A stretch of DNA of 64,000 bases from Actinomycetota bacterium. GTDB taxonomy: Bacteria > Actinomycetota > Geothermincolia > Geothermincolales > RBG-13-55-18. Under the pieces are notes generated by a model that saw nothing but the letters and a program-made list of their open reading frames with translations, was not told the DNA's origin and searched no databases. The stretch covers positions 1-64,000 of the forward strand of contig JASEFK010000005.1 in assembly GCA_030019255.1 (NCBI GenBank), read 5' to 3'. Position numbers and translations under genes: made by a program. Shown here one piece after another: positions 33,643-49,100 of this stretch (the first letter of the stretch is position 1; every line of letters starts with the position of its first letter).

Positions 33643-34611
33643 CTACCGGCAGCAGCAGCCTTCCGGGATGACCAGGACCCGGTCCCCTATCCTCTCCACA
33701 CGGGCCTCCACCCCGTAGGCCTCCCGGATGGTCTCCGGGTTGATGACCTCCGGCCCGCCCCACTTCAGCACGGCCCCGTCCTTGAGGACGATGAACCGGT
33801 CCGAGTAGCGGAGGGCCAGGTTGAGGTCGTGGATGGCCACCAGGACACAGAGGCCGCCGGACCTGGCCTCCGCGCGCAGGATCTCCATCACCTCCGTTTG
33901 GTTGCGCAGGTCCAGGTTGTTGGTGGGCTCGTCCAGGAGGAGGATGCGGGGCTCCTGGGCCAGGGCCCGGGCGATGACTACCTTCTGCAGCTCCCCTCCG
34001 CTCAGCTCGTCGGTGTAACGCAGGGCGAGATGGGCGAGGCCCAGGCGCTGAAGGATGGCCTCCACCGCCTTTAGGTCTACCGTTTCCACCCCCCAGCTCA
34101 CGTGGGGTTTCCTTCCCAGGAGGACGGCGTCGAAGACGGTCAGGCGGTGGTAGCCGTCGAAACGCTGGGGCACGTAACCCGCCTTCCTGGCCAGCTCCGA
34201 TGGCTTCAGGCGGGACAGGGAGATCCCCTCCACGAGGATGGTCCCCTCCCGGGGCCTGAGCAGCCGGAGCAAGCACTTGAGCAGGGTGCTCTTCCCCGCC
34301 CCGTTGTTCCCCAGCACGGAGCAAACCTCACCGCGCCGCAGGGTGAAGCTCACCCCGCGGAGGACCTCCGCCTGGGGGTAGGAGAAGGAGAGACCCTCCA
34401 CCTCCAGGGCCGGGCCGTCGTGCATCAGGGCCAGACCGTCCTGTGCTGCTCCGGCGTCGCTTCGTGCCGCCGGGAGCGTGAGGTGGAACCCCTCCGCGAC
34501 CTCCGGGTTGCCACCACGGTGTCCGGAGGTGTCCTGCGCTCCTTCACCTTCCCCACCGCCGGTGAGCCGTCCGTTAACATTATTTACCATCCTCCCGCGA
34601 GGTTCCTCCAT
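33643..34611 (-). CDS. FecE/BtuD-type ABC transporter ATPase
   Basis: 322 residues. The ABC domain begins near residue 68 (LEVEGLSFSYPQAEVLRGV). Walker A is LGNNGAGKSTLLK, the signature ELSGGELQKVVIARAL, Walker B ILLLDEPTNNLD. The Gly-rich 65 residues before it are unusual for the family. The start at 34611 lies nine bases past the permease stop, with GGAGGTGA upstream. It powers import of ferric chelates, heme or cobalamin. Confidence 0.9.
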   Translation of the reverse strand: MEEPRGRMVNNVNGRLTGGGEGEGAQDTSGHRGGNPEVAEGFHLTLPAARSDAGAAQDGLALMHDGPALEVEGLSFSYPQAEVLRGVSFTLRRGEVCSVLGNNGAGKSTLLKCLLRLLRPREGTILVEGISLSRLKPSELARKAGYVPQRFDGYHRLTVFDAVLLGRKPHVSWGVETVDLKAVEAILQRLGLAHLALRYTDELSGGELQKVVIARALAQEPRILLLDEPTNNLDLRNQTEVMEILRAEARSGGLCVLVAIHDLNLALRYSDRFIVLKDGAVLKWGGPEVINPETIREAYGVEARVERIGDRVLVIPEGCCCR

Positions 34612-34620
34612 GGCTGCGTG

Positions 34621-35691
34621 TCACCTCCGGTATCCCCGCACCAGCAGGTAGATGAAAAGGGGCGCCCCCATGAAGGAGGTTATGGCCCCCACGGGCAGGA
34701 CCACCGGGGCGATGATGTTGCGCCCCACGGTGTCCGAGGCCAGGAGCAGGAAGGCCCCCGCTACCGCCGACCCCGGCACCAGATAGCGGTAGTCGCCCCC
34801 GATGAGGCGGCGCATGAGGTGGGGAGCCACCAGGCCCACGAAGGCGATGATCCCCAGGAAGGCCACGCAAACCGCGGCCAAAAGGGAGGCCAGGAACATG
34901 CCCGCGAGGCGCAGGCGGTTCACGTTCACCCCCAGGGTCCGAGCCGTGTCATCCCCTGCGGCCATGGCGTTGAGGCTCCAGCGGTTGAGGATAAAGAAGG
35001 CGCACACGGGCAGGGTGACCGCGGCGATGATCGCCAGTTCCTTCCAGGAAGCCCGACCCAGGTCGCCGAAGGTCCAGAAGACGATGGAAGCCACCTGGAC
35101 GTCGCTGGCAAAGTACTGGGTGATGATGGTCCCGGCGGAGAAGAGGGCGCCCATGGCGATCCCGGCGAGAATCATGGCCTCGGGGGTCATCCCCCTGGCC
35201 CGGGCCATGCCCAGGACGATTAGGGTGGTGAGGATGGCCCCCAGGAAGGCGAAGACGGTGACCACGTAGGGGTTGTTTATCCACACCGCGTCCACGGTGG
35301 TACTCTGGGTGGAGCCGGCTCCGAAGGCCACGATGGCCACCGCCGCCCCGAAGGCGGCCCCCTGGGAGATGCCCAGGGTATAGTCGGAGGCCAGGGGGTT
35401 CACCAGCAGGTTCTGCATCACGCAGCCGGCCAGGGAGAGGGCCGCCCCGGCCAGGAGGGCGGCGAGGACGCGCGGCAGGCGGATGTGGAGGACGATGCGC
35501 GAGACGGTGGGGTCGGCCCTGCCCAGGAGGGCGCGGATGACCTCCAGGGGGGAGAGGCCCGCCGAGCCAAGGCCCATGGCCACCACGGCGAGGGCCACGG
35601 TGCCCAGGGCTACGAGGGCAATGACCAGGGTCTTTCTCCTCGCGTATCCCCGGTAAGCGGCGGTGACGGAGGCTACGACGTTCTCTCCCAT
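34621..35691 (-). CDS. FecCD/BtuC-type ABC transporter permease
   Basis: 356 residues with about nine or ten membrane helices. Family marks are IRLPRVLAALLAGAALSLAG, NPLASDYTLGISQGA, and the cytoplasmic coupling loop GLVAPHLMRRLIGGDYRYLVP. It forms the channel of the importer with the adjacent ATPase and binding protein. Confidence 0.9.
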   Translation of the reverse strand: MGENVVASVTAAYRGYARRKTLVIALVALGTVALAVVAMGLGSAGLSPLEVIRALLGRADPTVSRIVLHIRLPRVLAALLAGAALSLAGCVMQNLLVNPLASDYTLGISQGAAFGAAVAIVAFGAGSTQSTTVDAVWINNPYVVTVFAFLGAILTTLIVLGMARARGMTPEAMILAGIAMGALFSAGTIITQYFASDVQVASIVFWTFGDLGRASWKELAIIAAVTLPVCAFFILNRWSLNAMAAGDDTARTLGVNVNRLRLAGMFLASLLAAVCVAFLGIIAFVGLVAPHLMRRLIGGDYRYLVPGSAVAGAFLLLASDTVGRNIIAPVVLPVGAITSFMGAPLFIYLLVRGYRR

Positions 35692-35802
35692 GTATCGCGG
35701 TCACCTCGCTCTACCGCGCAGCCGTTGCACGGCCCATCCGGTTCTCCTTTCCGCCTACCGCGCCGGCCCCAAACGGATTCCCATTCACCCGCCGCGGTGG
35801 AT

Positions 35803-36912
35803 TCACCCGCCGAGGTGGAGGGGCTTGAAGCCGCCGAAGTCCCGGACCATGTCCTCGTAGAGGGGTTTTCCCAGCAGGTACTCGTATATCTCGTCGGCCT
35901 TTGCGACCGGGTCCACGTCCTCGAAGGACTCGGGGAAGATGACCTTACCCATGTAATAGGCGTCGGCGATGGCCGTCTCCACGTTGGTGGTGTAGTAGTT
36001 GTAGGGGAGGTAGCCGTAGACCCGGCCCTCCCGGAAAGCACGGAGGGACTGATAGTAACCGGGGTTCTTGCCGTAGTCCTCCTTGACCATGGCCAGGCCA
36101 CCCTCGTCGATGAAGATGATGTCTGGGTCCCAGGCCAGGAGCTTTTCCTTGTCGATCATCACGCTGCCCTTCTGACCCGTCTCGTCGGCCACGTTGACCG
36201 CGCCGATGGCGGAGAGGGGAGGAAAGTTGGCCTGGGTGCTCTCGATACCGTGGGTACCCTTGAAGCCGATGCCTCCCACATACACCTTCGGCTTCTCCGC
36301 GGTAGGGATATCCTTCGTCCGGGACCGCAGGTCCTCCTGGCAGCCCTGGATGAAATCCACCACCTCCTCGGCCCGCTCGCGGTTCCCGGTGATCTCCCCC
36401 ACCAGCCGGATGGAGCGCAGGAGCTCCTCGTCGAAGGCGCCCGGCTGCCCGTAGCTCAGGACCACCACCGGTATGCCCGTCTGCTGCTGCAGTTCGTCCG
36501 CCTTGGCCGCGTCGACCAGGTAAGCCACGAAGATCACGTCCGGATTCACGCTTATCAACTTCTCGGGATCGGGAGATGAATCCGGTCCTCCCTGCCCGAT
36601 GACCGGGAGCTCCTTGAGCTCGGGGTAGGCCATTATGTAGGGGCGCCCTGTGGTCCACTGCTTCTCCATGTTCTCGATGCCCACCACTTTGTCCGCGGCG
36701 CCCGCGTAGCAGACCAGGCGCAGAGCGCCCGGACCGATGGCGGTCACCCGCTCGGCGGGGACGGTCACCTCCACGCTCCTACCGGCGAGGTCGGTGAAGG
36801 TCCTGGTCCCGGCCTCGGAGGTCCCGCTTTTTTCTCCGCCGCATCCCGTCAGGGAAAGGGCGAGGACCAGCGCCGTGAGTACCGCCGCGATGACAGCCGA
36901 CTTGCTTCTCAT
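35803..36912 (-). CDS. ABC transporter substrate-binding lipoprotein (iron/B12 type)
   Basis: 369 residues. Lipobox LALSLTGC (Cys near 24), then a class III periplasmic-binding-protein fold: RTFTDLAGRSVEVTVPAERV, a long interdomain helix (about 165-200), GGIGFKGTHGIESTQANFPP and AWDPDIIFIDEGG. The family binds ferric siderophores, heme, cobalamin or simple metal ions; the ligand is not evident. The ATG at 36912 is preferred, as GGAGG lies nine bases upstream and directly abuts an in-frame TTG. The 284-base gap upstream separates it from the CooC-like gene. Confidence 0.88.
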   Translation of the reverse strand: MRSKSAVIAAVLTALVLALSLTGCGGEKSGTSEAGTRTFTDLAGRSVEVTVPAERVTAIGPGALRLVCYAGAADKVVGIENMEKQWTTGRPYIMAYPELKELPVIGQGGPDSSPDPEKLISVNPDVIFVAYLVDAAKADELQQQTGIPVVVLSYGQPGAFDEELLRSIRLVGEITGNRERAEEVVDFIQGCQEDLRSRTKDIPTAEKPKVYVGGIGFKGTHGIESTQANFPPLSAIGAVNVADETGQKGSVMIDKEKLLAWDPDIIFIDEGGLAMVKEDYGKNPGYYQSLRAFREGRVYGYLPYNYYTTNVETAIADAYYMGKVIFPESFEDVDPVAKADEIYEYLLGKPLYEDMVRDFGGFKPLHLGG

Positions 36913-37196
36913 CGTCCTCAACCTCCTTCGCTACGCTCCTGCGATTCTTATAATTGACCGATGTCCCCGAACCGGGGACGGACCCTGCGGCCGCGTTCGT
37001 CGCTCCGGCGGCGGGCGCCGTCTGACGACAGTGCGACGTCGCATCTCGGCAGTGAGGTAAAAAGCGGTTTTCCACGGACTGAACGACTTTGAACCCGGTT
37101 CACGCTTGTAAACCCCCAGGGGGGACGATTCGCGCTTCGGATTTCCACCCCACCCCCACTTCACGGCCTTCATCCCCAGTTAACCGGGCCGTGCGG

Positions 37197-37982
37197 TCAT
37201 TTCATGACAATTTCTTCCAACTCGGCAACCAGTTCCCCAAGGGAACCGTCGTGTCGCGCACCCGCGAGGCGAGAACCTTCCAGGCAAACACGGAAGATAT
37301 CGGGGGAGAAGGCGAGCGCGGCGGAGGGACGCAGGTCCGCCGCGGCCAGCATGTCCCGGAGCACGTCCTCCGACTCCCGGTCGGCCTTGTTTATCACTAC
37401 TAGGAAGGGCTTTTCCGCCTCCCGACACAGGCGGGCCGCCTTTTCGGCCAGGAGCACTGCCTCCCGCGAGGGGTCCACCACCAGGAGCACGGCGTCGACT
37501 CCCTCCAGGACGCCCCGGCCGAAGTGCTCGATGCCCGCCTCGGTGTCCACCAGGACCCACTCCTCGGGCTCCACCTGCAGGCTGTTCAGGAATCCCCGGG
37601 CCAGGGCGCCCATGGGACAGGCGCATCCCTCCATGCTGTGCTCTATCTTTCCAATTCTTACCAAGGAGACCTTGCCGCTGGTGGAGACGCACTGCGGGGG
37701 AAGGGATCGCGGGCTGAGGGGTTCCTCGAAGAAGATGGGTCCCTCCCGAACCTCTCCGCGCAGCGCTGAGATCAGCTTCTCCCGAACCGCTCCCTTGCCG
37801 CCCAGCCAGTCCATGACCGTGCTTTCAGGCGACTCCACTCCCAGCATGGCGGGAAGCCCGAGGTTGGACTCGTCGGCGTCCACCACCAGTACCGGGCCGC
37901 GTTCCGAAAGCATCCCGGCCAGGATGCTCACCAGGGTGCTCTTTCCGCTTCCTCCTCTTCCGCACACCAGTATCTTGGGCAT
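37197..37982 (-). CDS. Second CooC-like ATPase
   Basis: 261 residues: KILVCGRGGSGKSTLVSILA (P-loop with Arg-Gly-Gly-Ser in place of the usual Lys-Gly-Gly-Val), DADESNLGLP, a CxC metal motif in MEGCACPMGA, and DTEAGIEHFGRGVLEGVD. It belongs with CooC but to a different branch from the gene at 20733. It is embedded in a metal-importer/methyltransferase cluster, so its client protein may not be CO dehydrogenase. Confidence 0.82.
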   Translation of the reverse strand: MPKILVCGRGGSGKSTLVSILAGMLSERGPVLVVDADESNLGLPAMLGVESPESTVMDWLGGKGAVREKLISALRGEVREGPIFFEEPLSPRSLPPQCVSTSGKVSLVRIGKIEHSMEGCACPMGALARGFLNSLQVEPEEWVLVDTEAGIEHFGRGVLEGVDAVLLVVDPSREAVLLAEKAARLCREAEKPFLVVINKADRESEDVLRDMLAAADLRPSAALAFSPDIFRVCLEGSRLAGARHDGSLGELVAELEEIVMK

Positions 37983-38123: not shown

Positions 38124-38921
38124 TTAACACGGGTTCGCGTTCTCCGGGAGGGAAGCGGCGGTCGGGAAGCTCCCCGCCTCGCGGCAGCGGATGGTGACCT
38201 CCGGCTTCCGGGCCTCGAGGAGATAACCCTCCCGGCCGTCGCGGATTTCAATTACCTCAAATCCCGCCTCCCGAAACCAGCGGCGCATGGTCGCCTCGTC
38301 GGGCAAAAGATCGCCGCCTACCGCTCCACCCAGGCGGAGGTGCCGGGCATTGATTGTCTCCCGGTCCTCGGTGTGGGAGATGACCGCGCGGCCTCCCGGG
38401 CGGAGGATCCGGAACATCTCGCGGACCGCCCTCCCCTTGTCCGCCACGTGGGGGAAGCAGTTGTGGCAGATCACCAGGTCGAAACTATCGTCCAAGAAGG
38501 GGGTGGCGGCGATGTCCGCCTGCAGGTAGTGCAGGTTAGGGCGCTGCAGCTTGGAGCGGGCCACCTTGAGCATCTCCTCGGCCACGTCCACCGCGCACAC
38601 GCTCCCCTCCTCTCCTACCGCCTCCAGCAGCCGAGGGATGAGGACACCGGTCCCGCAGCCCACGTCCAGCACCCGGGAGCCGGGCTCTATTCCGAGGGAG
38701 AGAACCAGTCTTCGGCTGCGCTCGAGGGTCAAGGCGTCCTGGGTCAGGTCCCAGTCGGCGGCCCGGCGGTTGAAGAACTCCCGTATCTCGTGCGCGTGGG
38801 TCATCGGTTGTTCTTCCCAATCGCTCGGAGGAACATTAAGGATTCCCTCTTCGAGTTCGGAGCGGGACAGCGAGGATGCAACCCGGGCGACCTCTCCCGG
38901 AGGGATTACCACGGCGTCCAT
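38124..38921 (-). CDS. Class I SAM-dependent methyltransferase
   Basis: 265 residues. After about 40 extra residues, the motif FFNRRAADWD and motif I VLDVGCGTGVLIPRLL (about 83-98), VDVAEEMLKVARSK, DLVICHNCFPHV and ILRPGGRAVISHTE mark a class I methyltransferase. The substrate is unknown. AGGAGGTGAT lies about 12 bases before the ATG at 38921; an internal ATG at 38804 begins the family core. It is the first gene after a structured leader with a terminator. Confidence 0.82.
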   Translation of the reverse strand: MDAVVIPPGEVARVASSLSRSELEEGILNVPPSDWEEQPMTHAHEIREFFNRRAADWDLTQDALTLERSRRLVLSLGIEPGSRVLDVGCGTGVLIPRLLEAVGEEGSVCAVDVAEEMLKVARSKLQRPNLHYLQADIAATPFLDDSFDLVICHNCFPHVADKGRAVREMFRILRPGGRAVISHTEDRETINARHLRLGGAVGGDLLPDEATMRRWFREAGFEVIEIRDGREGYLLEARKPEVTIRCREAGSFPTAASLPENANPC

Positions 38922-39287: not shown

Positions 39288-39317
39288 TTGCGCCAGTGTT
39301 GACGGCGGTGTTATCAT
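39288..39317 (+). promoter_or_regulatory. Likely promoter of the cobalamin-riboswitch operon
   Basis: TTGCGC (39288-39293), an 18-base spacer, and TATCAT (39312-39317). Transcription would start about 20 bases before the aptamer. Confidence 0.45.
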
Positions 39318-39343
39318 GTCTTCGTTCGGGGTTGACAACCGCA

Positions 39344-39507
39344 TAACATGCCGGCCGGGTTCGCAAGATTAAAAGGGAAGTCGGTGAGAATCCGACACGG
39401 TAGCGCCGCTGTGACCGGGGAGCGAAGCCCCAACGATCCCACTGGCGAAAGCCGGGAAGGGGGGGCGGAGCGATGATCCGGAAGTCAGAAGACCTGCCCG
39501 GCATGGG
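39344..39507 (+). promoter_or_regulatory. Cobalamin riboswitch
   Basis: All core elements are present in order: an outer P1 strand acatgccgg pairing with cccggcatg near 39497-39505; aaaagggaagtcggtgagaa; the conserved gccgctgtgacc; actggcgaaagccgggaagg; and the B12 box agtcagaagacctgcc at about 39483-39498. It senses adenosylcobalamin or another corrinoid and should switch off the genes downstream when the ligand is plentiful. Confidence 0.95.
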
Positions 39508-39549
39508 TCAGTGAGCTCTCCGCCTTAGAGAGATTCTGACGGAAGTGTC

Positions 39550-39585
39550 ATCTCCTCTCTCGAAGCGAGAGAGGAGATTTTTTAT
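39550..39585 (+). terminator. Riboswitch expression-platform terminator
   Basis: atctcctctctcg-aag-cgagagaggagat is a perfect 13-bp stem followed by tttttt. It lies about 45 bases after the aptamer. The sequence ctctccgccttagagaga just before it could contribute to an alternative pairing. Confidence 0.92.
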
Positions 39586-39971
39586 CTTTCGGGGGCTGAG
39601 AGCATCAGCCGGTCGATGTCGCTGGGGATGGGCGGGGCAAACTGGGATTATCCATCGAGGTCACTGGGTTCCCGGTGGCAGAAATCACGTCCTCGAGAGA
39701 GTAGAAGCCCACGGGCACAAGTCGGGCAGGGAGGACCGAGCGCCCAGGGCGTGCCCTCCACGGCTCCGCCAACTTAACCCCCACTTCGGTATCGGGCCGG
39801 ACGGGACGGGAGTGGCGCAAGAGAGGGAGTGGCACGGAAGGGGCGGGTCATCGCGGAAGTAGGAAAGCGCATGATCGCGAGGTAGAGGCAGGAGGAGTCG
39901 AGGAGGAAGAAGAGAATGGGCTCAGCTGCCTATTCGACAGCAGGGGAGTGATTCATATGGAGGAGGCGGAA
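39586..39971. other. Leader between riboswitch terminator and first gene
   Basis: About 385 bases, GC-rich, with no ORF that has a ribosome site. No second aptamer recognised. Confidence 0.5.
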
Positions 39972-42623
39972 ATGAAAGGTTGGCTGCGGAAAGACGAATT
40001 CCCCACCGAGAGCTCGGAAGCACGTTTCCGGGCGGGGAGGAAAGGTCACGGGGTGAGGAGGAGGCGGATTCCAACCGTCCTCCACACGTCGTTTATCCTG
40101 ACCCTTTTCATCCTTTCCTTCCTTATCCCCGTGGCGGTCGGGCTGCGGACGGAAAGGGCTTTCGCCCAGCCGGGCGAGCTCATCTTCGAGAGTGCGGATT
40201 ACGACATCAAGGACGGCACCGCCCCCACGGTGGTGAACGGGAAGGCCTACCTCTTCGCCGGCGAGGATCCCTGGACACTTCCCGGAACCAACAGCAAGGT
40301 GGTGGCCCTGGACGCCTCCGACGGTGACCTTGTCTGGGAGACGGAGCTGGAGTGGGCGGGGGGCATGGGGTCCAAGGCCCGACCCCTGGCGGACTCGGGA
40401 TGGCTCTACATCGGTTGTGGAAAGTCGGTTTACTGTTTGATGGCGGACAATGGGGCCAAGGTCTGGGCTAGGGACATCACCCCAGAGGGAGCGGGCTCGG
40501 TCAACTCCGTGATCATCACCGACCCGGTGATGTACACCAATGCCTCCGGCAAAAAGGTGGTGGTGGTCGGAGATTACGTCTACGGGGCCTACGTGGGCCT
40601 GGACGCGGCCGACGGCACCATACTCTGGCGGTATGCCCTGGACGACAACACCTCGGCCATCGGAGCGCCCGGGGTGGACGACGCGAACGACCGCCTCTAC
40701 GTGCCCCAGCACACTTCCTTCGGGTTCCCGGTTAACGGTAAGGTGCACTGCCTGGACGTGTCCGGCGCTTCCCCGGTCAAGAAATGGGAATACAAGACTT
40801 CCTACGACGTGGCCGGCGGTATCGCCGTCCACCAGAGAAAGCTCTTCTTCAGTGACTTCGCCTACGGCGGGCTGAGGAGCAAGTTCTATTGTCTGGAGGA
40901 TCAGGGCGATTCCGCCTCCCTCCTCTGGAGCGCCGAGGTCTGGGGTTCCTCCGGTACGCCCCTGGTGGAGGAGAACAGCGAAACCGTTTACTTCTGCGGC
41001 AACGACTACTCCGTGGGCGGGAACCACTTCTACGCCTATGACATGACTACCGGCAACCTGCTCTGGGACAACCCCAACTGGGGGGCCTACAACGGCAATT
41101 GCTCGCTATCCCCGAGCACCGGATACCTGTACGCCGGGAGCTTCGACACCACGGCCTGGGCGCACAATAAGGGTCTGGCGGCCATGGATCCCTTGACCGG
41201 GAGCGAGCTCTGGTACGTGACCAGCAAGGGCGGCGGGGACCCCGTGGTGGTGGATGGCGTGGTCTACAGCACCGCCGACGGAAGGCTTTACGCCTACCGT
41301 GAGTATGTCCCCTCAACCTTCGACTGGTACTTCGCCGAGGGTTACACCGGGGATGGCTTCGACGAATTCCTGTGCCTGGCCAACCCCGGCGCGACGCCGG
41401 AGGATGATGCTCGAGTGGAGGTGACCTATATCTTCAACGGGGGCCGGCCTCCGGAGACGAAGAATCTCCAGGTGCCCGGCGGTACCCGGAGCACCGTCTA
41501 CGTCAACGCGGCAGTGGGAGGGGGCGAGGAGGTCTCCGTAAAGGTGGTCTCCGACAAGCCGCTGGTGGCCGAACGCCCGGTGTACTTCAACTACCAAGGT
41601 ACGGCCAATCGCAACTGGACGGGCGGCCACTGCGTGGTGGGCGCCGACGCCCCCTCCAAAGAGTGGTACTTCGCCGAGGGCTACACCGGCGACGGCTTCG
41701 AGGAGTACCTCACCCTGGCCAATCCCAGTAACCAGCTGGCAACCGTTCAGGTGACCTACCTTTACAACGGGGAGGACCCGGTGATCAAGCCCTACACGGT
41801 GGGTGCCAACTCCCGCCGCACCCTCAATGTCAACCAGGAGGCGGGAGCGGGCAAGGAGCTGGGCATCAAGGTGAATAGCGACCAGCCCATCCTGGCCGAA
41901 CGCCCGGTGTACTTCAACTACCAAGGTACGGCCAATCGCAACTGGACGGGCGGCCACTGCGTGGTGGGCGCCGACGCCCCCTCCAAAGAGTGGTACTTCG
42001 CCGAGGGCTACACCGGCGACGGCTTCGAGGAGTACCTCACCCTGGCCAATCCCAGTAACCAGCCGGCAACCGTTCAGGTGACCTACCTTTACAACGGGGA
42101 GGACCCGGTGATCAAGCCCTACGCGGTGGGTGCCAACTCCCGCCGCACCCTCAATGTCAACCAGGAGGCGGGAGCGGGCAAGGAGCTGGGCATCAAGGTG
42201 AATAGCGACCGGCCCATCCTGGCCGAACGCCCGGTGTACTTCAACTACGGTGGCAAGTGGACCGGTGGCTCCTGCGTGGCGGGAGCGAAGATGGCCGCGA
42301 ACTTCTGGTGCCTGGCGGAGGGCTATACCGACCTCAACTTCGACGAGTACATATGCATATCCAACCCGGGGAAGGAGGACGCCTGGGTGGCTGGCGTGCC
42401 ACTATTCGGAGGCGGTGAACCCTTCAACCTGGTGGTGGAGGCGGGCAGAAGGCAAACCGTGATCCTGCACAGCGACGAAAGCGTGGAACGCGCCTATGCC
42501 CTCTATTCCGACCGGGGGGTGGTGGTAGAGCGGTCTACTTACTTCAACTACCAGGGATTCGCGGCCAGCAACTGGGATGGCGGACACTGCACCCTGGGGG
42601 CTGCCATGCGGGATATATATTGA
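39972..42623 (+). CDS. Secreted PQQ-like beta-propeller protein with four C-terminal WYFAEGYT repeats
   Basis: About 883 residues. A late signal segment (SFILTLFILSFLIPVAVGL, about 45-63) is followed by a beta-propeller (about 70-440) with repeats such as KVVALDASDGDLVWE and GLDAADGTILWRY. Four modules of about 109 residues then start at WYFAEGYTGDGF (near 452, 565, 674) and a diverged WCLAEGYTDLNF (near 779), each with AERPVYFNY and GGHC. The middle two are almost identical in DNA. It probably works at the cell surface. GGAGGAGG precedes the ATG at 39972; 39957 is possible. As the first gene under the cobalamin riboswitch it may help capture corrinoids; that is inference. Confidence 0.8.
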   Translation: MKGWLRKDEFPTESSEARFRAGRKGHGVRRRRIPTVLHTSFILTLFILSFLIPVAVGLRTERAFAQPGELIFESADYDIKDGTAPTVVNGKAYLFAGEDPWTLPGTNSKVVALDASDGDLVWETELEWAGGMGSKARPLADSGWLYIGCGKSVYCLMADNGAKVWARDITPEGAGSVNSVIITDPVMYTNASGKKVVVVGDYVYGAYVGLDAADGTILWRYALDDNTSAIGAPGVDDANDRLYVPQHTSFGFPVNGKVHCLDVSGASPVKKWEYKTSYDVAGGIAVHQRKLFFSDFAYGGLRSKFYCLEDQGDSASLLWSAEVWGSSGTPLVEENSETVYFCGNDYSVGGNHFYAYDMTTGNLLWDNPNWGAYNGNCSLSPSTGYLYAGSFDTTAWAHNKGLAAMDPLTGSELWYVTSKGGGDPVVVDGVVYSTADGRLYAYREYVPSTFDWYFAEGYTGDGFDEFLCLANPGATPEDDARVEVTYIFNGGRPPETKNLQVPGGTRSTVYVNAAVGGGEEVSVKVVSDKPLVAERPVYFNYQGTANRNWTGGHCVVGADAPSKEWYFAEGYTGDGFEEYLTLANPSNQLATVQVTYLYNGEDPVIKPYTVGANSRRTLNVNQEAGAGKELGIKVNSDQPILAERPVYFNYQGTANRNWTGGHCVVGADAPSKEWYFAEGYTGDGFEEYLTLANPSNQPATVQVTYLYNGEDPVIKPYAVGANSRRTLNVNQEAGAGKELGIKVNSDRPILAERPVYFNYGGKWTGGSCVAGAKMAANFWCLAEGYTDLNFDEYICISNPGKEDAWVAGVPLFGGGEPFNLVVEAGRRQTVILHSDESVERAYALYSDRGVVVERSTYFNYQGFAASNWDGGHCTLGAAMRDIY
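41571..42224 (+). repeat. Two near-identical 327-bp tandem units inside the repeat protein
   Basis: Units 41571-41897 and 41898-42224 keep the reading frame (109 codons) and differ at only a few bases, for example cagctggcaacc/cagccggcaacc and tacacggtg/tacgcggtg. Recent duplication or gene conversion is likely. Confidence 0.9.
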
Positions 42624-43041
42624 GCGGGTTGACCGGCGAATCGGGAGCTCGCGCAATTGTTGTCAATAATTGGAAACCCATGACCACCCCCGCCCGGCTG
42701 GTTCCGGGGCGGTCATCGCCCGCGGAATCGTGGCGGCCCCAAAAGGCCGGGAAAGGAGGGTGAGGCGAAATCCCGGGTCGGATACCTGAAGGCGCGGGAA
42801 GAAGGTGGTAAGGGTTACCATCGAGGGCTCCTTGCGGTCGACCACCTGGAGGGCAGGGGACGAAGATCCCCTGCCCGAGCCCTTGCCATGGAAAGGGGCG
42901 TCCGGTGGAGGGGTGGAGGCACGTTTGACCAGGAGGAGCCGGTGATGCCCGGACGGCCGGGCTCCCCATTCCCGGGAAGATTGTCCGAAGGGGGAACGAA
43001 GACAGGTCGACCCTCCCAGTGGTAAGGAGCGAGGCGGAACG
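42624..43041. other. Intergenic region inside the cobalamin-regulated cluster
   Basis: 418 bases. A hairpin at 42851-42876 (gggcagggga-cgaaga-tcccctgccc) has no T run, so it is more likely an RNA-processing or stability element than a terminator. No gene seen. Confidence 0.5.
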
Positions 43042-44049
43042 GTGAGCAGGGCAGGTGGAGAGGTAAAAGGGAGGCCGGGGTGGTTCGAGGCCCTGGCGCT
43101 CGCCCTTGCCGCGATGGTGGCCTTCTTCCTGGTCCGGGGCTGCTCCTTCATGCCCTGGAACCGTTCCGGCCGGGAAGTGGAGGTGAGGGTCACCGTCACC
43201 CGCGATTTCGGGACCGTAGCCCTCAAGGATGAAAATATTCGACTGGAAGAAGGTGGCAGCGCCATGGATGCCCTACGGGAGGTGGCGGAGGTGGAGACGG
43301 CTTACAGCGGTGGCTTCATCCAGGGCATTGACGGCCTGCGCTCCCGCTACGATTCCCTCCTTGGTGGAGGAGAGAAAGTGGACTGGTTCTTCTACGTCAA
43401 CGGGCACATGGCGGACATGGGAGCCGATTCCTACGAGGTAAGGGACGGCGACTGGCTGGTCTTCGACTATCACACCTGGGATTACTCCACGTTCACTCCC
43501 TTCCTGGCCGGATGCTTCCTCCAGGCCTTTCGCAACGGGTACGGGGGCCGGGTCCCGGAGAGCATAGTGATCCTCAACCCGCCGGGCGACGAGGAGCAGG
43601 CAGAGGAAGTGGCGGCCATACTGGAGGAGCAGGGGCTGACCTGCGAGAACCGCCTCCTGGGTGAGCACTGGGTTCCCCGTGAGGACGAGTACGCGGTGGT
43701 GGTGGGCACGTGGAAGGAACTGGAAAACAATCCCTACCTCCGCGAGGCCCAGTCCAATGCCTCCCGCCTGGGTCTTTACGCCTATTTCGAGGGGGGCGAA
43801 CTGAAGCTCGCCGGCCCGGGAGGAGAGGTGGCCGAGGTCCTCTCCGGGAGCGCCGGCCTGCTCGAGGGCACGGGTCCCCGCCTGGGCGACGGGCGTTCCG
43901 CGCTCCTGGTATCCGGGTTGGACGAGGAAGGCCTCCAAGCGGCTGTGGAGGCGCTAAGGGTACTGGCGGCGGAGGGCGGCAGGCCGGTGACCGCCCTGGC
44001 GGCGCTGCCGGGCCGGGAACCGCTGGCCGTGCCGGGGGAGGTGAGGTGA
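43042..44049 (+). CDS. Membrane-anchored DUF4430 (transcobalamin-like C-terminal domain) protein
   Basis: 335 residues. One N-terminal membrane segment (about 15-34, FEALALALAAMVAFFLVRGC), then a DUF4430 domain (about 45-150): VRVTVTRDFG, GGSAMDALREVAEVETAYSG, KVDWFFYVNGHMADMGADSY, VRDGDWLVFDYHTWDY. In animal intrinsic factor and transcobalamin this beta-rich domain forms one side of the cobalamin cleft. The remaining 180 residues (ESIVILNPPGDEEQAEEVA onward) are not assigned. GTG start after AAGGAG. It overlaps ecfT by four bases. I infer an extracellular corrinoid-binding part of the transporter encoded next to it. Confidence 0.85.
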   Translation: MSRAGGEVKGRPGWFEALALALAAMVAFFLVRGCSFMPWNRSGREVEVRVTVTRDFGTVALKDENIRLEEGGSAMDALREVAEVETAYSGGFIQGIDGLRSRYDSLLGGGEKVDWFFYVNGHMADMGADSYEVRDGDWLVFDYHTWDYSTFTPFLAGCFLQAFRNGYGGRVPESIVILNPPGDEEQAEEVAAILEEQGLTCENRLLGEHWVPREDEYAVVVGTWKELENNPYLREAQSNASRLGLYAYFEGGELKLAGPGGEVAEVLSGSAGLLEGTGPRLGDGRSALLVSGLDEEGLQAAVEALRVLAAEGGRPVTALAALPGREPLAVPGEVR

Positions 44050-44963
44050 AGTTGGTCCCGGTGTACCGACCCCGGGAGACCTTGATACACGGCCTGCATC
44101 CCCTGGCCGCCCTGGCGCTGTACGCCTCCCTGGTGGCCGTGGTGCTGGTGCTCCAGAACCCACTGTACCTGGCAGTAGTCGGGTTGGGCGTCCTGTCGCT
44201 GGTTCTCCTGGCGGAGGTAAAGGAGGAATGCCGACCTTTCCTCCGCCTGGGGATGTTCATGGCCCTGCTGGTGACCCTGCTCAACCCCCTGGTGAACCGC
44301 CAGGGCGGGCACATCCTGGTCTACGGGCCCGGACTGCCCGTCCTGGGAAGGCTGGACATCACCCTGGAGGCGCTGGCCTACGGGATGGTCTCCGGTTTTC
44401 GGCTGTTCCTGGTCATCGCCGTCTTCGGGCTGGCCGGCACCACCGTGAACCCGGACGACCTCCTGGATATCCTTTCCAGTTTGTCCCTGCGCTCCTCCCT
44501 CTCCGCTGCCCTGGCCGTGCGGCTCTATCCCAGCCTAGTGGTGGAGGCCGGGGAAATGCTGGAGGTACAGCTGGCCAGGGGGGAGAGGCTGCGGGGCGGC
44601 AGCCGCAGAGAGAGGATAAAAGCCCGTTTCCCCTTCTGGATGTCCCTGTTCCGGGGTTCCCTGGACCGCGCCGCCGCCATTGCCGAAGCCATGAGCGCGC
44701 GGGGTTTCGGGAGCGGGAAGGTTACCCGGCGTCGCCGCCCCTTCCGGGGAAGGGATTACCTCGTGGTCCCGCTGTCCCTGGGAACACTTGCCGCGGCTGT
44801 CCTCTCCTCCATGGGTGGGGGTTACCGGTACTTCCCGACCCTGGATAATCCGCTGGCCGGGCTGGAGATCCGGACGGCTGCGGTGCTGGCCGGGTTTTTT
44901 TCGGCCCTGGTAATTATTGGAAGGTGCTGGAAAAGATGGCCCTGGTGGAGATCTCGAATCTGA
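44046..44963 (+). CDS. ecfT: ECF transporter T component (EcfT/CbiQ)
   Basis: 305 residues, with membrane helices at the N terminus (LHPLAALALYASLVAVVLVL) and C terminus and a long cytoplasmic helical region. The coupling motifs ARGERLRG (about 176) and SARGFGSGK (about 216) contact the two ATPases in known ECF complexes. The GTG start at 44046 is inside the stop of the DUF4430 gene (GTGA), with GGGGGAGG upstream. The gene overlaps ecfA downstream. Confidence 0.9.
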   Translation: MKLVPVYRPRETLIHGLHPLAALALYASLVAVVLVLQNPLYLAVVGLGVLSLVLLAEVKEECRPFLRLGMFMALLVTLLNPLVNRQGGHILVYGPGLPVLGRLDITLEALAYGMVSGFRLFLVIAVFGLAGTTVNPDDLLDILSSLSLRSSLSAALAVRLYPSLVVEAGEMLEVQLARGERLRGGSRRERIKARFPFWMSLFRGSLDRAAAIAEAMSARGFGSGKVTRRRRPFRGRDYLVVPLSLGTLAAAVLSSMGGGYRYFPTLDNPLAGLEIRTAAVLAGFFSALVIIGRCWKRWPWWRSRI

Positions 44964-46651
44964 CTTACTGGTATCCCCGGGGGGAGAAACCCGCCCTCCG
45001 GGAATTGAGCCTCAGGGTGGAGAAGGGGGAGTTCGTCCTCCTCACCGGTCCCACCGGCTGCGGGAAGACCACCCTCATGCGCCTTCTCAACGGGCTGGTT
45101 CCCCACTTCCACGGTGGTGTTCTGCAGGGGAGGGCCCTGGTATGCGGGATGGACGTGATATCCGCCGGGCCCCGTCCCCTCTCCGCCCGGGTGGGGATGG
45201 TCTTCCAGGACCCCGAGGACCAGCTGGTGAGCACCACGGTGGAGAAGGAGGTGGCCTTCGGCCTGGAGAACGCCGGCCTGCCCGCCCCGGTGATCTCCAA
45301 GCGGGTGGAGGAGATGCTCGCGGGCATGGGACTCTCCCGCCTGCGGCGCTCCTTCCTGCCCGAGCTCTCCGGGGGGGAAGCCCAGAAGGTCATCCTGGCT
45401 TCCATCCTGGCCCTGCATCCCGAGATACTGGTGCTGGACGAGCCCACCTCCCAGCTGGACCCCCTGAGCGCGGAGGAGCTGCTCACCGTGGTGCGACGCA
45501 TCCACGAGGAGACGGGGACCACGGTCATCATGTCCGAGCACCGGCTGGAACGGTGTTTCCACTACGCCACCCGCGTGATCCACCTGGAGGAAGGGAGCAT
45601 TCGTTTCGACGGCACTCCCTCCCAGGCGGCACGCTGGTGGGGGTTGCGCGAAGGAGCTTTCCTTCCCCCAGTCTCTAGGGTCTTCGCCCGGGCGGGGTGG
45701 AAGGAGATACCCCTGACCGTGAACCAGGCGCGGCGGCTGCTTTTCGGTCTCGTGGAGCCGGGTACCGGGGAAAGGCATGGCCGCGGCCAGGAGAGGGGAG
45801 AGAGCCCCGCCGCGTTAGAGGCGTTGGCGGAAACCAGGGACCTCTGGTATGTCTTTCCAGCGGGCGCAGAGGCCCTGCGGGGCGTGGACCTGCGCCTGGA
45901 GGCCAGAAGGCACCTGGTTATCATGGGAGAGAACGGGGCCGGCAAGAGCACCTTGCTGCGCTGCCTCCTGGGTCTCCTTCCTCCCACCCGCGGAAGGGTC
46001 TCGCTGCTGGGGGAGAGGCCGAGCCGGGGGAGGCTGCCTGACCTGGCCTCCCGGCTGGCTTACTGTCCACAGAATCCGAACACCTATTTCCTCTCTCCCA
46101 CCGTGCGCCTGGAGATGCTGCGCACCCTGAAGCTCCGCGGATACAGAGGCGGGGATGCGGAGAAACTGGTGGAGGAACAGCTGCGCCGCTTCGGGCTGGA
46201 AGGAACGGCGGAGAGGGACCCCCGGGACCTGAGCAGCGGGCAGAAGGAGAAGCTGGTCTTGGCCTCCGCGCTGTTGCCGCCCGTGCCGGAGCTCCTGGTC
46301 CTGGACGAGCCCACGCGGGGACTGGATTACGGGAGCAAAAGGGAAATATTGGAAATTATTCGTGACTGCGGCGACGGCGGGAGCACGGTGGCGGTGGTCA
46401 CCCACGACGTGGAGTTCGCCGCCGCCTTGGCGGAGGAGGCGGCCATCCTGGGAGACGGGAAGGTGATTGTGAAGGGCCCCGCCGGGGATATACTGAGCGA
46501 TTCCCTCTTTTTCGCGCCCCAGGTGAACCGGCTGCTCAACGACCTCTACCCGGGCCTGATACGCGAGGAGGAGGCGGTGGCCGTCCTGAGGGCTCTGCGG
46601 GAAAGGCCGGCCGCAGGGAAAAAGCGGGAAGGCAGGGAGGCGGGAGCGTGA
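44936..46651 (+). CDS. Double ECF ATPase (EcfA1-EcfA2 fusion)
   Basis: 571 residues with two complete ABC domains. First: GPTGCGKTTLMRLLNG, signature ELSGGEAQKV, Walker B VLDEPTSQLDP. Second (from about 310): GENGAGKSTLLRC, DLSSGQKEKLVLAS, VLDEPTRGLDYG. Most ECF systems use two separate ATPases; fused ones are known. It drives the T and S components encoded on either side. The ATG at 44936 is 28 bases inside ecfT. Confidence 0.92.
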   Translation: MALVEISNLTYWYPRGEKPALRELSLRVEKGEFVLLTGPTGCGKTTLMRLLNGLVPHFHGGVLQGRALVCGMDVISAGPRPLSARVGMVFQDPEDQLVSTTVEKEVAFGLENAGLPAPVISKRVEEMLAGMGLSRLRRSFLPELSGGEAQKVILASILALHPEILVLDEPTSQLDPLSAEELLTVVRRIHEETGTTVIMSEHRLERCFHYATRVIHLEEGSIRFDGTPSQAARWWGLREGAFLPPVSRVFARAGWKEIPLTVNQARRLLFGLVEPGTGERHGRGQERGESPAALEALAETRDLWYVFPAGAEALRGVDLRLEARRHLVIMGENGAGKSTLLRCLLGLLPPTRGRVSLLGERPSRGRLPDLASRLAYCPQNPNTYFLSPTVRLEMLRTLKLRGYRGGDAEKLVEEQLRRFGLEGTAERDPRDLSSGQKEKLVLASALLPPVPELLVLDEPTRGLDYGSKREILEIIRDCGDGGSTVAVVTHDVEFAAALAEEAAILGDGKVIVKGPAGDILSDSLFFAPQVNRLLNDLYPGLIREEEAVAVLRALRERPAAGKKREGREAGA

Positions 46652-46745
46652 AGGGTTTTTCGTTGGAAGGGCGGCGGGATGACGGCCATCCACGCCGTTT
46701 GCGGGAGGGGGAGACACCGCCTGCGGCGGAAGGGAGACGACGGTG

Positions 46746-47573
46746 ATGCTTACAAGGAAGGGTCTGGACCGGAACGGCACCGAGGGGAGCTTGCCGGAAA
46801 ATCGGTGGCTCACGGGACGGCGGGGCTTGCGGATGTTACGCTGGATCCTCCTGGCCTCCATCCCGGCATCGGTCTTCCTGGGCATAGAAGGAGTGGCGCC
46901 CTTTTCCCGCTGGTCCCTGAACTCCCTCCTCCTGGCCCTCCTCCTCCTGGCCCTGCTCTTCCTGCGCTTCGAGGAGGGGGATTACGGGGCCCGCGAGGTG
47001 GCGGCGGTGGGAGCCCTGGCCGCGGTGGGCGCGGCGGGAAGAGTTTTCTTCGCCGCCCTGCCGGGGGTGCAGCCGGCCACCTTCCTGGCCGTCCTGGCCG
47101 GTTATGCCCTGGGGGCCGAACCCGGTTTCCTGGTGGGAGCCCTGGTTGCCCTCCTGAGCAACATATTCCTGGGCCACGGTCCCTGGACCCCCTGGCAGAT
47201 GCTCGCCTGGGGCCTGGCTGGGGCCAGCGGCGGCCTCCTGGCCGCCTTTCACCGGGAGAAACGCTTGCTCGCCGCGGCCGCCGTCCTGGTCACCGCCTGG
47301 GGATTCCTCTTCGGGTGGTTCATGAACCTGTGGTTCTGGCTCTCCTTCGTCTATCCCCTGAACTGGGCTTCTTACGTCGCCACCTGCGCTACCAGTTTCT
47401 GGTTTGACCTTTTCCATGCCGCGGGGAACCTGGCCTTCGTCCTGGCGTTGTGGAGGCCGATGGCCGACATGCTGCGGCGTTACCGGGAGCGCTTCGGTTT
47501 CCGGTACCTGGGCAATGGCCCGGACGGGATCTCCCTTCCGGGCAATCCCCGGGAGAGGTTGAGCGGTCCATAA
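46746..47573 (+). CDS. ECF transporter S component, probably corrinoid-specific
   Basis: About 275 residues with six or more membrane helices. The segment FLGHGPWTPWQMLAWGLAG is typical of a group of S components, and PGVQPATFLAVLAGYALG precedes it. S components bind the vitamin and set specificity. Cobalamin is inferred from the riboswitch and from the DUF4430 neighbour, not from binding residues. RBS AAGGGAG; a GTG three bases earlier is equally possible. Confidence 0.85.
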   Translation: MLTRKGLDRNGTEGSLPENRWLTGRRGLRMLRWILLASIPASVFLGIEGVAPFSRWSLNSLLLALLLLALLFLRFEEGDYGAREVAAVGALAAVGAAGRVFFAALPGVQPATFLAVLAGYALGAEPGFLVGALVALLSNIFLGHGPWTPWQMLAWGLAGASGGLLAAFHREKRLLAAAAVLVTAWGFLFGWFMNLWFWLSFVYPLNWASYVATCATSFWFDLFHAAGNLAFVLALWRPMADMLRRYRERFGFRYLGNGPDGISLPGNPRERLSGP

Positions 47574-47840
47574 CCCCCGGGATTCCGATAAATGGAAAAT
47601 ACTAATAGGAAAGCCGAGAAGAGCGGGATGACGGCCGGTAGGGTTACGAGGAAAAAGAAGCGGGGGAAGACCGCGAAAAAGGAACGCCTTCTTCCGGCGG
47701 GGGAAGATGGCCCGATAAACGGGAGGCGGGCAGGTTGCCGAAGTCGACCGTTTGCCGGATCTATCCCCGTGAAAAGCGACTGCAGGTGGAGAAGGTGAAG
47801 GATCGCCGGGTACAATGGCGGTTATGCGGAGGTGGTTCTC

Positions 47841-49100
47841 TTGAGGCATAAGGTGCTGGCCCTGGCTTTCGTGGGAGCCTTGCTTCTGTCTGCGCTGGCG
47901 GCCGTGAGCCCCGCGAGAGCAGGGATTGGCGAGGCCTTGGCCTACATCCGGGCCCGGCAGACCCCGGATGGGGGTTTCTGCGAGCCGGGCCGAGGGGCGA
48001 TGGGGCAGGACGTGACCACCGCCTGGTGCATTATGGCCCTCTCTGCTGCGGGCGTTGATCCTTCCTCGGTCAGGTCGCAAGGGCGCTCCCCCCTGGATTT
48101 CCTGGCTACCCAGTCCGCCAACTGGAGGAGCGTGACCGACTACGAGAGGACCTTGCTCGCCGTGGTGGCGGGAGGAGGGAACCCTTACGACTTCGGGGGA
48201 GTGGACCTGGTAGCCAGGGTGAGATCCTTCCAGAGGTCGGGAGGGAACATCGGCGACGCGGTCAACTCCAACGCCTTCGGTATCCTGGCCTACCGGGCGG
48301 CGGGGATCGAGATCCCTCCCGGGGCAGTGCAGTGGCACAAGGCGGTGCAGAACCGTGACGGGGGATGGGGAAACAGCCCGGGGGCGGCCAGCAACCCGGA
48401 CATGACCGCCGCCTCCATCATGGCCTTGCGCACCGCGGGCGTGGACCCGGGTGACCCCTCCATCGTCTCCGCCCTCTCCTACCTCAGGTCCATACAGAAC
48501 TCGGACGGGGGATTCGCTTTCCAGTCCTCTTCCTCCGACGCGGCGGCCACCGCCTGGTGTGTGCAGGCTCTGGTGGCAGCGGGACAGGATCCGGCGGGCC
48601 CGGCGTGGTCGAAGGACGGGAACACCCCCTGGAGCTTCCTCCTTTCCATGCAGGCTCCTGACGGGCATTTCATATGGATGCGGGGGCGGGACGTCAACCC
48701 CCTCTGGACCACCGCCTATGCGGTGTGCGCCTTAGCCCGGAAACCCTACCCGGTGGCCGTATTCCGGGTGGAAGGGAGTTCTTCCGTGGGAGGGGTGACG
48801 GCGCCCTCGCAGGCGGCGGGAGGAGAGCCTGCCGGCGTGGAATCCACGGCCGCACCTGGCGAAGAGGAAGCCGCGGCCGGCGAGAAAGAGGGTGAGGCCG
48901 CGCTGGAGGAGGCCCCGGGAGAGGACACCGCGGCGCCCGAGTCGGAGGCGGCGGAATTCCGCGTGGAGGGAGAGAAGAAGAGCGGCGGGGTACACTCGGC
49001 GGCCTGGGCGGTTCCCCTGGCTGTTCTCGTCCTCGGCGGCGCCTTTGGTTCCTGGTATTTCCTGGCAAGGAGGCGTGCGGGAAAGGTGAACCAGGGTTAA
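47841..49100 (+). CDS. Surface-anchored prenyltransferase/squalene-oxidase-repeat (alpha/alpha-barrel) protein
   Basis: 419 residues. A signal peptide ends ARA near residue 27. The barrel repeats (about 30-300) carry the QxxDGGF/W marks: RQTPDGGFCEPG, VQNRDGGWGNSPG, IQNSDGGFAFQSS, MQAPDGHFIW, and TTAWCIMALSAAGVDP. A Glu/Ala-rich linker (about 315-385) leads to a C-terminal membrane helix (WAVPLAVLVLGGAFGSWYFL) with a basic tail, so the barrel faces outside. This fold is the alpha domain of transcobalamin. TTG start with GGAGG eight bases upstream; a TACAAT box near 47811 could give it its own promoter. Confidence 0.85.
   Translation: MRHKVLALAFVGALLLSALAAVSPARAGIGEALAYIRARQTPDGGFCEPGRGAMGQDVTTAWCIMALSAAGVDPSSVRSQGRSPLDFLATQSANWRSVTDYERTLLAVVAGGGNPYDFGGVDLVARVRSFQRSGGNIGDAVNSNAFGILAYRAAGIEIPPGAVQWHKAVQNRDGGWGNSPGAASNPDMTAASIMALRTAGVDPGDPSIVSALSYLRSIQNSDGGFAFQSSSSDAAATAWCVQALVAAGQDPAGPAWSKDGNTPWSFLLSMQAPDGHFIWMRGRDVNPLWTTAYAVCALARKPYPVAVFRVEGSSSVGGVTAPSQAAGGEPAGVESTAAPGEEEAAAGEKEGEAALEEAPGEDTAAPESEAAEFRVEGEKKSGGVHSAAWAVPLAVLVLGGAFGSWYFLARRRAGKVNQG

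Follow-up and report, generated by a model that had tools for sequence, protein, structure and literature searches.

A cobalamin-riboswitch-controlled operon of an Actinomycetota bacterium that probably takes up corrinoids through an ECF importer with transcobalamin-like surface halves

In animals, vitamin B12 is carried by transcobalamin, haptocorrin, and intrinsic factor, each of them one soluble chain that combines an alpha/alpha barrel with a DUF4430-type beta domain. A stretch of 64,000 nucleotides from an Actinomycetota bacterium of the class Geothermincolia (assembly GCA_030019255.1, contig JASEFK010000005.1, positions 1 to 64,000 of the forward strand; this whole stretch is referred to as the window) encodes the same two domains as two separate anchored chains, as known from sequence, in one operon with an energy-coupling factor (ECF) importer. 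This raises the question of what the importer takes up, and whether the two proteins are a split transcobalamin, as was proposed in an original prediction made from the DNA letters without database searches. We suggest, with a probability of about 0.75, that the operon encodes a riboswitch-controlled corrinoid (vitamin B12) uptake system with transcobalamin-like surface halves.

The aptamer upstream of the operon scored 112.6 bits against the RF00174 covariance model (gathering score 31.5; E = 2e-27) and is full-length, with positions 1-189 of 189 aligned, in agreement with the clear B12 riboswitch that the original prediction had placed ahead of the gene block. An intrinsic terminator adjoins the aptamer, and therefore transcription attenuation is the likely mode of control by the predicted expression platform on its 3' side. 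All genes of the operon lie downstream of the riboswitch on the same strand (+), and Pfam and NCBIfam scans recovered everything the block had been predicted to contain: a secreted repeat protein, which is the beta-propeller described below, a DUF4430 protein, EcfT, a double EcfA, an S component, and a barrel protein (Table 1). Membership in the NCBIfam SCO2321 family (NF053823) was rejected, since the match of 100.5 bits lies below the curated cut-off of 300 and indicates a relative of this family, not a member. The gene ends overlap between DUF4430 and EcfT and between EcfT and EcfA; the starts at 43042 and 44046 are provisional, and the barrel gene starts at either 47832 or 47841. Homologous clusters sit under cobalamin riboswitches, and the original prediction was thus not refuted by clusters lying consistently under riboswitches of other vitamins. 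The class relatives have a cobalamin riboswitch upstream of the homologous operon, a direct search of seven distant loci found one just upstream of the operon in all seven, and mapping by contig coordinates, in which a few cases are doubtful, placed one on the same strand within 35 of 50 loci, mostly just 5' of the first gene.

We searched 58 related genomes besides the window's own, and found the order riboswitch, propeller, DUF4430, EcfT, EcfA, S component, and barrel kept in about 20 class loci, wherever the contig was long enough. Because the block order is conserved in about 20 related genomes whose contigs show it, the arrangement is not due to chance. Among 31 class genomes, the S component and DUF4430 were both present in 22, both absent from seven, and discordant in two (Fisher p = 2e-5, with kinship ignored); both discordant genomes are fragmented, and the contig of one of them (G029) starts inside EcfT.

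The S component of the window matched the Pfam family ECF_trnsprt just above the cut-off (3e-7). A profile built from 23 S components and run against PDB sequences had its best match in chain A of 6FNP (E = 1.6e-25 over 174 of 218 positions), which belongs to ECF-CbrT of Lactobacillus delbrueckii, a transporter of cobalamin and cobinamide with nanomolar binding (9 nM for cobalamin and 36 nM for cobinamide; PMC5997447). The sole other PDB match was the much weaker 4HZU (E = 2e-5), and other substrates were rejected as far as the S component is concerned, as the structures of CbiM, FolT, and RibU were not matched. Since the S component is CbrT-like, the substrate of the window's importer is very probably a corrinoid. 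The double ATPase EcfA-EcfA' scored 329.7 bits against TIGR04520 (cut-off 315), and the importer shares with ECF-CbrT both the S family and the combination of one T component with two A domains; the window differs from ECF-CbrT (PMC5997447) in that its module is a dedicated one, its A and A' are fused, a cobalamin riboswitch precedes it, and surface proteins of the barrel and propeller type accompany it. A riboswitch-controlled ECF module proposed to be a cobalamin transporter is likewise present in acI Actinobacteria, but the passages on that module (PMC5301498) describe no transcobalamin-like surface proteins.

Scanning genomes with the S-component profile gave 80 loci in Bacillota, Actinomycetota, and archaea, and adding the class relatives and the window brought the number of CbrT loci examined to 115. 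In 43 of them, the barrel and DUF4430 are encoded by a single gene, in either domain order, and many of these fused proteins end in SLH- or LPxTG-like segments. Usually the operon encodes another DUF4430 protein besides the fused one, in most cases immediately ahead of EcfT. The window itself has the barrel and DUF4430 as two genes, and fusion is found only in its relatives. We modelled one fusion of 408 residues (locus L122; predicted local distance difference test, pLDDT, 86.8; predicted template modelling score 0.73), and a Foldseek search with it returned transcobalamin, haptocorrin, or intrinsic factor at all of ranks 1-15 (E from 9e-11 to 5e-8), followed by squalene-hopene cyclase (2.5e-5). 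At the sequence level, identity between the bacterial fusion and the animal B12 carriers is 14-17%, and hhalign of the fusion profile against a transcobalamin sequence aligned the beta domain only (probability 42, E = 2.6e-4).

Co-occurrence of DUF4430, barrel, and S component was surveyed, as the original prediction had proposed, and proved near-perfect. The sample for co-occurrence was 120 genomes of one Bacillota phylum, and its p-values ignore kinship. DUF4430 was present in 37 genomes, a strong CbrT match in 37, and both in 36 (p = 2.5e-28), and 64 of 83 DUF4430 matches sit at most 15 kb from CbrT. A barrel of the window's family was present in 32 genomes, every one of which also carries CbrT and DUF4430 (p = 3e-24).

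The beta half is a long-type DUF4430 protein for which hydropathy predicts an N-terminal transmembrane segment. A conserved RGC motif comes after this segment, in the window protein and in most relatives. When 57 DUF4430 domains of CbrT loci were combined into a profile, it matched haptocorrin (1.4e-4) and the transcobalamin beta domain (0.005), while intrinsic factor (0.13) fell below significance and the structural-genomics protein 3U7Z tied for the top rank. The approximately 175-residue C-terminal domain of the long type (43522-44049 in the window) had no Pfam or NCBIfam match. Among long DUF4430 proteins (alignment A4), a WDYHxW-type motif after a GD turn is nearly invariant (FDYHTW in the window), and its histidine is a candidate cobalt ligand. 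In three archaeal loci (L072, L077, and L094, from Thermoplasmatota and other euryarchaeal records), the operon consists of DUF4430, EcfT, EcfA, and the S gene, with no barrel or cobalamin riboswitch detected. Streptomyces-type loci have a divergent DUF4430-like gene between the barrel and EcfT, a call based on motif reading and an hhalign match (E = 3e-5), and a divergent domain of this kind is fused to the barrel in two actinobacterial loci (L058, 12457-14118, and L064, 12556-14253, both on the minus strand).

In the alpha half, hydropathy reveals a signal peptide as well as a transmembrane anchor at the C terminus, and the same holds for most of the class relatives examined. The window barrel, for which an enzymatic role was rejected, has NPDMTA in place of the cyclase acid motif DxDD, and this motif is absent from 56 of 60 aligned barrels. 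At L069, L070, and L147, two of which are in the window's class, the barrel has a DxDDT[AG] motif that resembles the acid motif of squalene-hopene cyclases.

Several results weigh against a transcobalamin-like pair in a corrinoid uptake system. Taken alone, the barrel resembles terpene cyclases and prenyltransferases more than transcobalamin, both in sequence and in fold: a Foldseek search with the AlphaFold2 model of the window barrel (pLDDT 97.1) ranked terpene cyclases first and transcobalamin at rank 44 (E = 1.8e-6), the barrel profile found no B12 carrier among the best 60 PDB sequences, and its hhalign comparison with transcobalamin was weak and gave no convincing match. In the L122 model, the relative orientation of the two domains differs from that in transcobalamin (root-mean-square deviation about 20 Å), which might be expectable for a model without ligand. 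At least 13 loci, three of them archaeal, have DUF4430 and no recognised barrel in the stretch covered; therefore a two-part clamp is not universal, and DUF4430 can probably work without a barrel. BtuFCD-type genes are also present in the genome, and therefore the ECF operon is not the sole corrinoid route.

The two-gene form has a history of its own. The window barrel falls within a clade of solo barrels (support 1.0), which takes in the barrels adjoining the S gene in Bacillota loci L073, L076, L081, L083, and L086, and the window DUF4430 falls within a clade of the long type (support 0.998). These two clades are drawn largely from the same loci across phyla, and outside the window's class long DUF4430 and solo barrels are significantly but moderately associated (p = 0.008). 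As judged from the sequences, the split pair is thus a lineage of its own, largely co-inherited across several phyla, and some operons hold both a fused binder and the split pair.

We propose the following mechanism for the operon. When cobalamin is plentiful, the aptamer would bind it and the terminator would stop transcription; when it is scarce, the cell would make EcfT, the double EcfA, the CbrT-type S component, and the three envelope proteins. The C-terminally anchored barrel and the N-terminally anchored DUF4430 protein correspond to the two halves of an animal B12 carrier. Most likely they would capture a corrinoid outside the membrane and, in the manner of transcobalamin and intrinsic factor, hold it between the barrel and the beta domain, with the beta-propeller probably aiding surface capture or anchoring. 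The corrinoid would then be handed over to CbrT, which would topple and be reset by ATP hydrolysis.

The claim that split transcobalamin halves flank a corrinoid ECF importer as envelope proteins is well supported computationally by the CbrT match, the DUF4430 profile, the fusions, and the structural matches of the L122 model. That the two separate chains jointly clamp the corrinoid is a step that we favour slightly; intrinsic factor split by proteolysis reassembles from its halves around cobalamin. The two-part clamp would not be a universal arrangement, given the loci with DUF4430 and no recognised barrel. The two surface proteins might instead serve the same importer independently and without a joint clamp, with DUF4430 as a substrate-delivery lipoprotein beside EcfT and CbrT and the barrel as a separate scavenger or receptor. 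Such a division of labour would suit the long DUF4430 genes, which in the loci examined adjoin EcfT on its upstream side even where no barrel is found (L072, L077, and L094), the stand-alone DUF4430 lipoproteins that many Bacillota operons have beside the fused protein, and a Lactobacillus protein labelled "Additional lipoprotein component of putative cobalamin ECF transporter" (PMC9963975), which we infer to be a DUF4430 protein. We nevertheless consider it rather unlikely, because the two domains form one chain in over a third of the CbrT loci in either order, two actinobacterial loci fuse the barrel to a divergent DUF4430, and the solo barrel and long DUF4430 have for the most part been inherited together. 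Going beyond joint clamping, we give about even odds to a two-component transcobalamin whose anchored halves close on the corrinoid and open to pass it on to CbrT. In this reading the propeller would be a third surface part specific to the class, and the split form an ancient alternative to the fused one, from which the animal B12 carriers have been proposed to derive.

The ligand itself may mainly be a corrinoid precursor or incomplete corrinoid such as cobinamide instead of complete cobamides, with the mechanism otherwise the same. The genome contains a riboswitch-controlled salvage operon (see below) and CbrT also imports cobinamide, but it holds cobalamin more tightly (PMC5997447), and the barrel and DUF4430 resemble binders of complete cobalamin, which makes this version improbable. 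Import of cobalt or another vitamin, for which one could point to the CbiQ family of EcfT and to weak NCBIfam and Pfam matches of the S component that name folate and riboflavin, is very improbable in view of the specific match of the S component to CbrT and of the cobalamin riboswitches above these clusters. Equally improbable, and strongly disfavoured, is that the barrel is a terpene cyclase or prenyltransferase incidental to the operon. By itself, the barrel finds its best matches among terpene cyclases, in sequence as in fold, and a few relatives carry DxDD, two of them in the window's class; against this stand the lack of the motif in the window and its presence in any form in just four of 60 relatives, the secretion and membrane anchoring of the window barrel, its restriction among the 120 genomes to those with CbrT and DUF4430, and its fusion to DUF4430 in other loci.

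A corrinoid uptake system with transcobalamin-like parts has a clear precedent. Burroughs et al. (2007; PMC1796856) described bacterial relatives of the transcobalamin beta domain, often fused to alpha/alpha toroids and encoded near CbiO/CbiQ genes, and predicted that these proteins scavenge B12 outside the cell and were passed to animals from Gram-positive bacteria. Their SLBB and toroid proteins have the same two domains, transporter neighbourhood, and predicted role as those of the window, but are fused, with Gram-positive anchors and a second paralogous SLBB protein in the operon, whereas in the window the domains are separate membrane-anchored proteins and a propeller is added as the first gene. 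For this clade, the passages concerned name low-GC Gram-positives, planctomycetes, and euryarchaea, not Actinomycetota, and they mention neither an S component nor a riboswitch. The "distinct uptake architecture" of the original prediction would therefore hold for the separate-chain form, which is new, and not for the fused form beside CbiO/CbiQ, which was predicted in 2007. In the open-access literature searched, we found no report that links a bacterial transcobalamin to an ECF S component or a riboswitch, and no experimental test of bacterial transcobalamin-like proteins. What is new beyond the 2007 prediction is the CbrT partner, the control by cobalamin riboswitches, the quantitative co-occurrence, and the propeller gene, as well as a version in Actinomycetota that has separate chains and a phylogeny of its own.

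Table 1. Features of the operon and its neighbourhood in the window
Feature	Position	Strand	Basis or remark
BtuD-, BtuC-, and BtuF-like genes	33646-36921	-	divergent, upstream of the riboswitch operon
ParA/CooC-like ATPase	37197-37982		beside the Btu-like genes
S-adenosylmethionine (SAM) methyltransferase	38124-38921		beside the Btu-like genes
Cobalamin riboswitch aptamer RF00174	39340..39515	+	Infernal match
Intrinsic terminator, 13-pair hairpin and T-run	39550..39578	+	directly 3' of the aptamer
Secreted PQQ-type beta-propeller with C-terminal DUF5719-like surface repeats	39948..42623	+	Pfam PQQ_2, 2e-26
Membrane-anchored long-type DUF4430 protein	43042..44049	+	Pfam DUF4430, 4e-14
DUF4430 domain (SLBB, transcobalamin beta-domain-like)	43255..43473	+	profile matches to B12 carriers
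EcfT transmembrane component	44046..44963	+	Pfam CbiQ family, 2e-17
Double ABC ATPase EcfA-EcfA'	44924..46651	+	two Pfam ABC_tran domains, 5e-53
S component, CbrT family	46743..47573	+	profile match to 6FNP chain A
Alpha/alpha-barrel protein with signal peptide and C-terminal transmembrane anchor	47832..49100	+	Pfam squalene-cyclase/prenyltransferase toroid, 3e-12

The first gene of the operon, encoding the propeller, is conserved between the riboswitch and the DUF4430 gene in the class relatives. In Bacteroides, BtuG is likewise a surface beta-propeller encoded with a B12 transporter (PMC6143338), but the window propeller is PQQ_2/BamB-like and a candidate B12 binder only, and the window operon revealed no outer-membrane BtuB partner. 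PF16819, the propeller family of the Bacteroides B12 loci, was not among its Pfam matches, which besides PQQ_2 and DUF5719 are minor overlapping families, and identity with BtuG was rejected, there being no match in the Pfam scans. By sequence, the conserved propeller gene is thus reminiscent of BtuG without matching it.

The rest of the genome gives the impression of a corrinoid scavenger. CbiC, the single marker of de novo corrin synthesis searched for, was not found in the genome, which is 98.8% complete, and 15 B12-binding domains are present. The only other cobalamin riboswitch of the genome (G000:C3:20510-20691, locus L067) precedes a corrinoid salvage and uptake operon, cobU-cobT-cobS-cbiB-cobD-btuF-btuC-btuD. 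L038, L039, and L040 also have, near their ECF operon, parts of the group of Btu-like, ATPase, and methyltransferase genes that lies divergently beside the window's operon.

The prediction of 2007 is now tied to CbrT, a proven B12 importer family, to riboswitches, and to near-perfect co-occurrence. From the link to B12 uptake, DUF4430 gains a likely function, as does a group of bacterial "squalene-cyclase-like" surface proteins. Since the halves of the two-gene version can be expressed and mixed separately, direct tests become possible of the clamp idea, of where the animal B12 carriers came from, and, through a pairing inherited across several phyla, of bacterial B12 capture.

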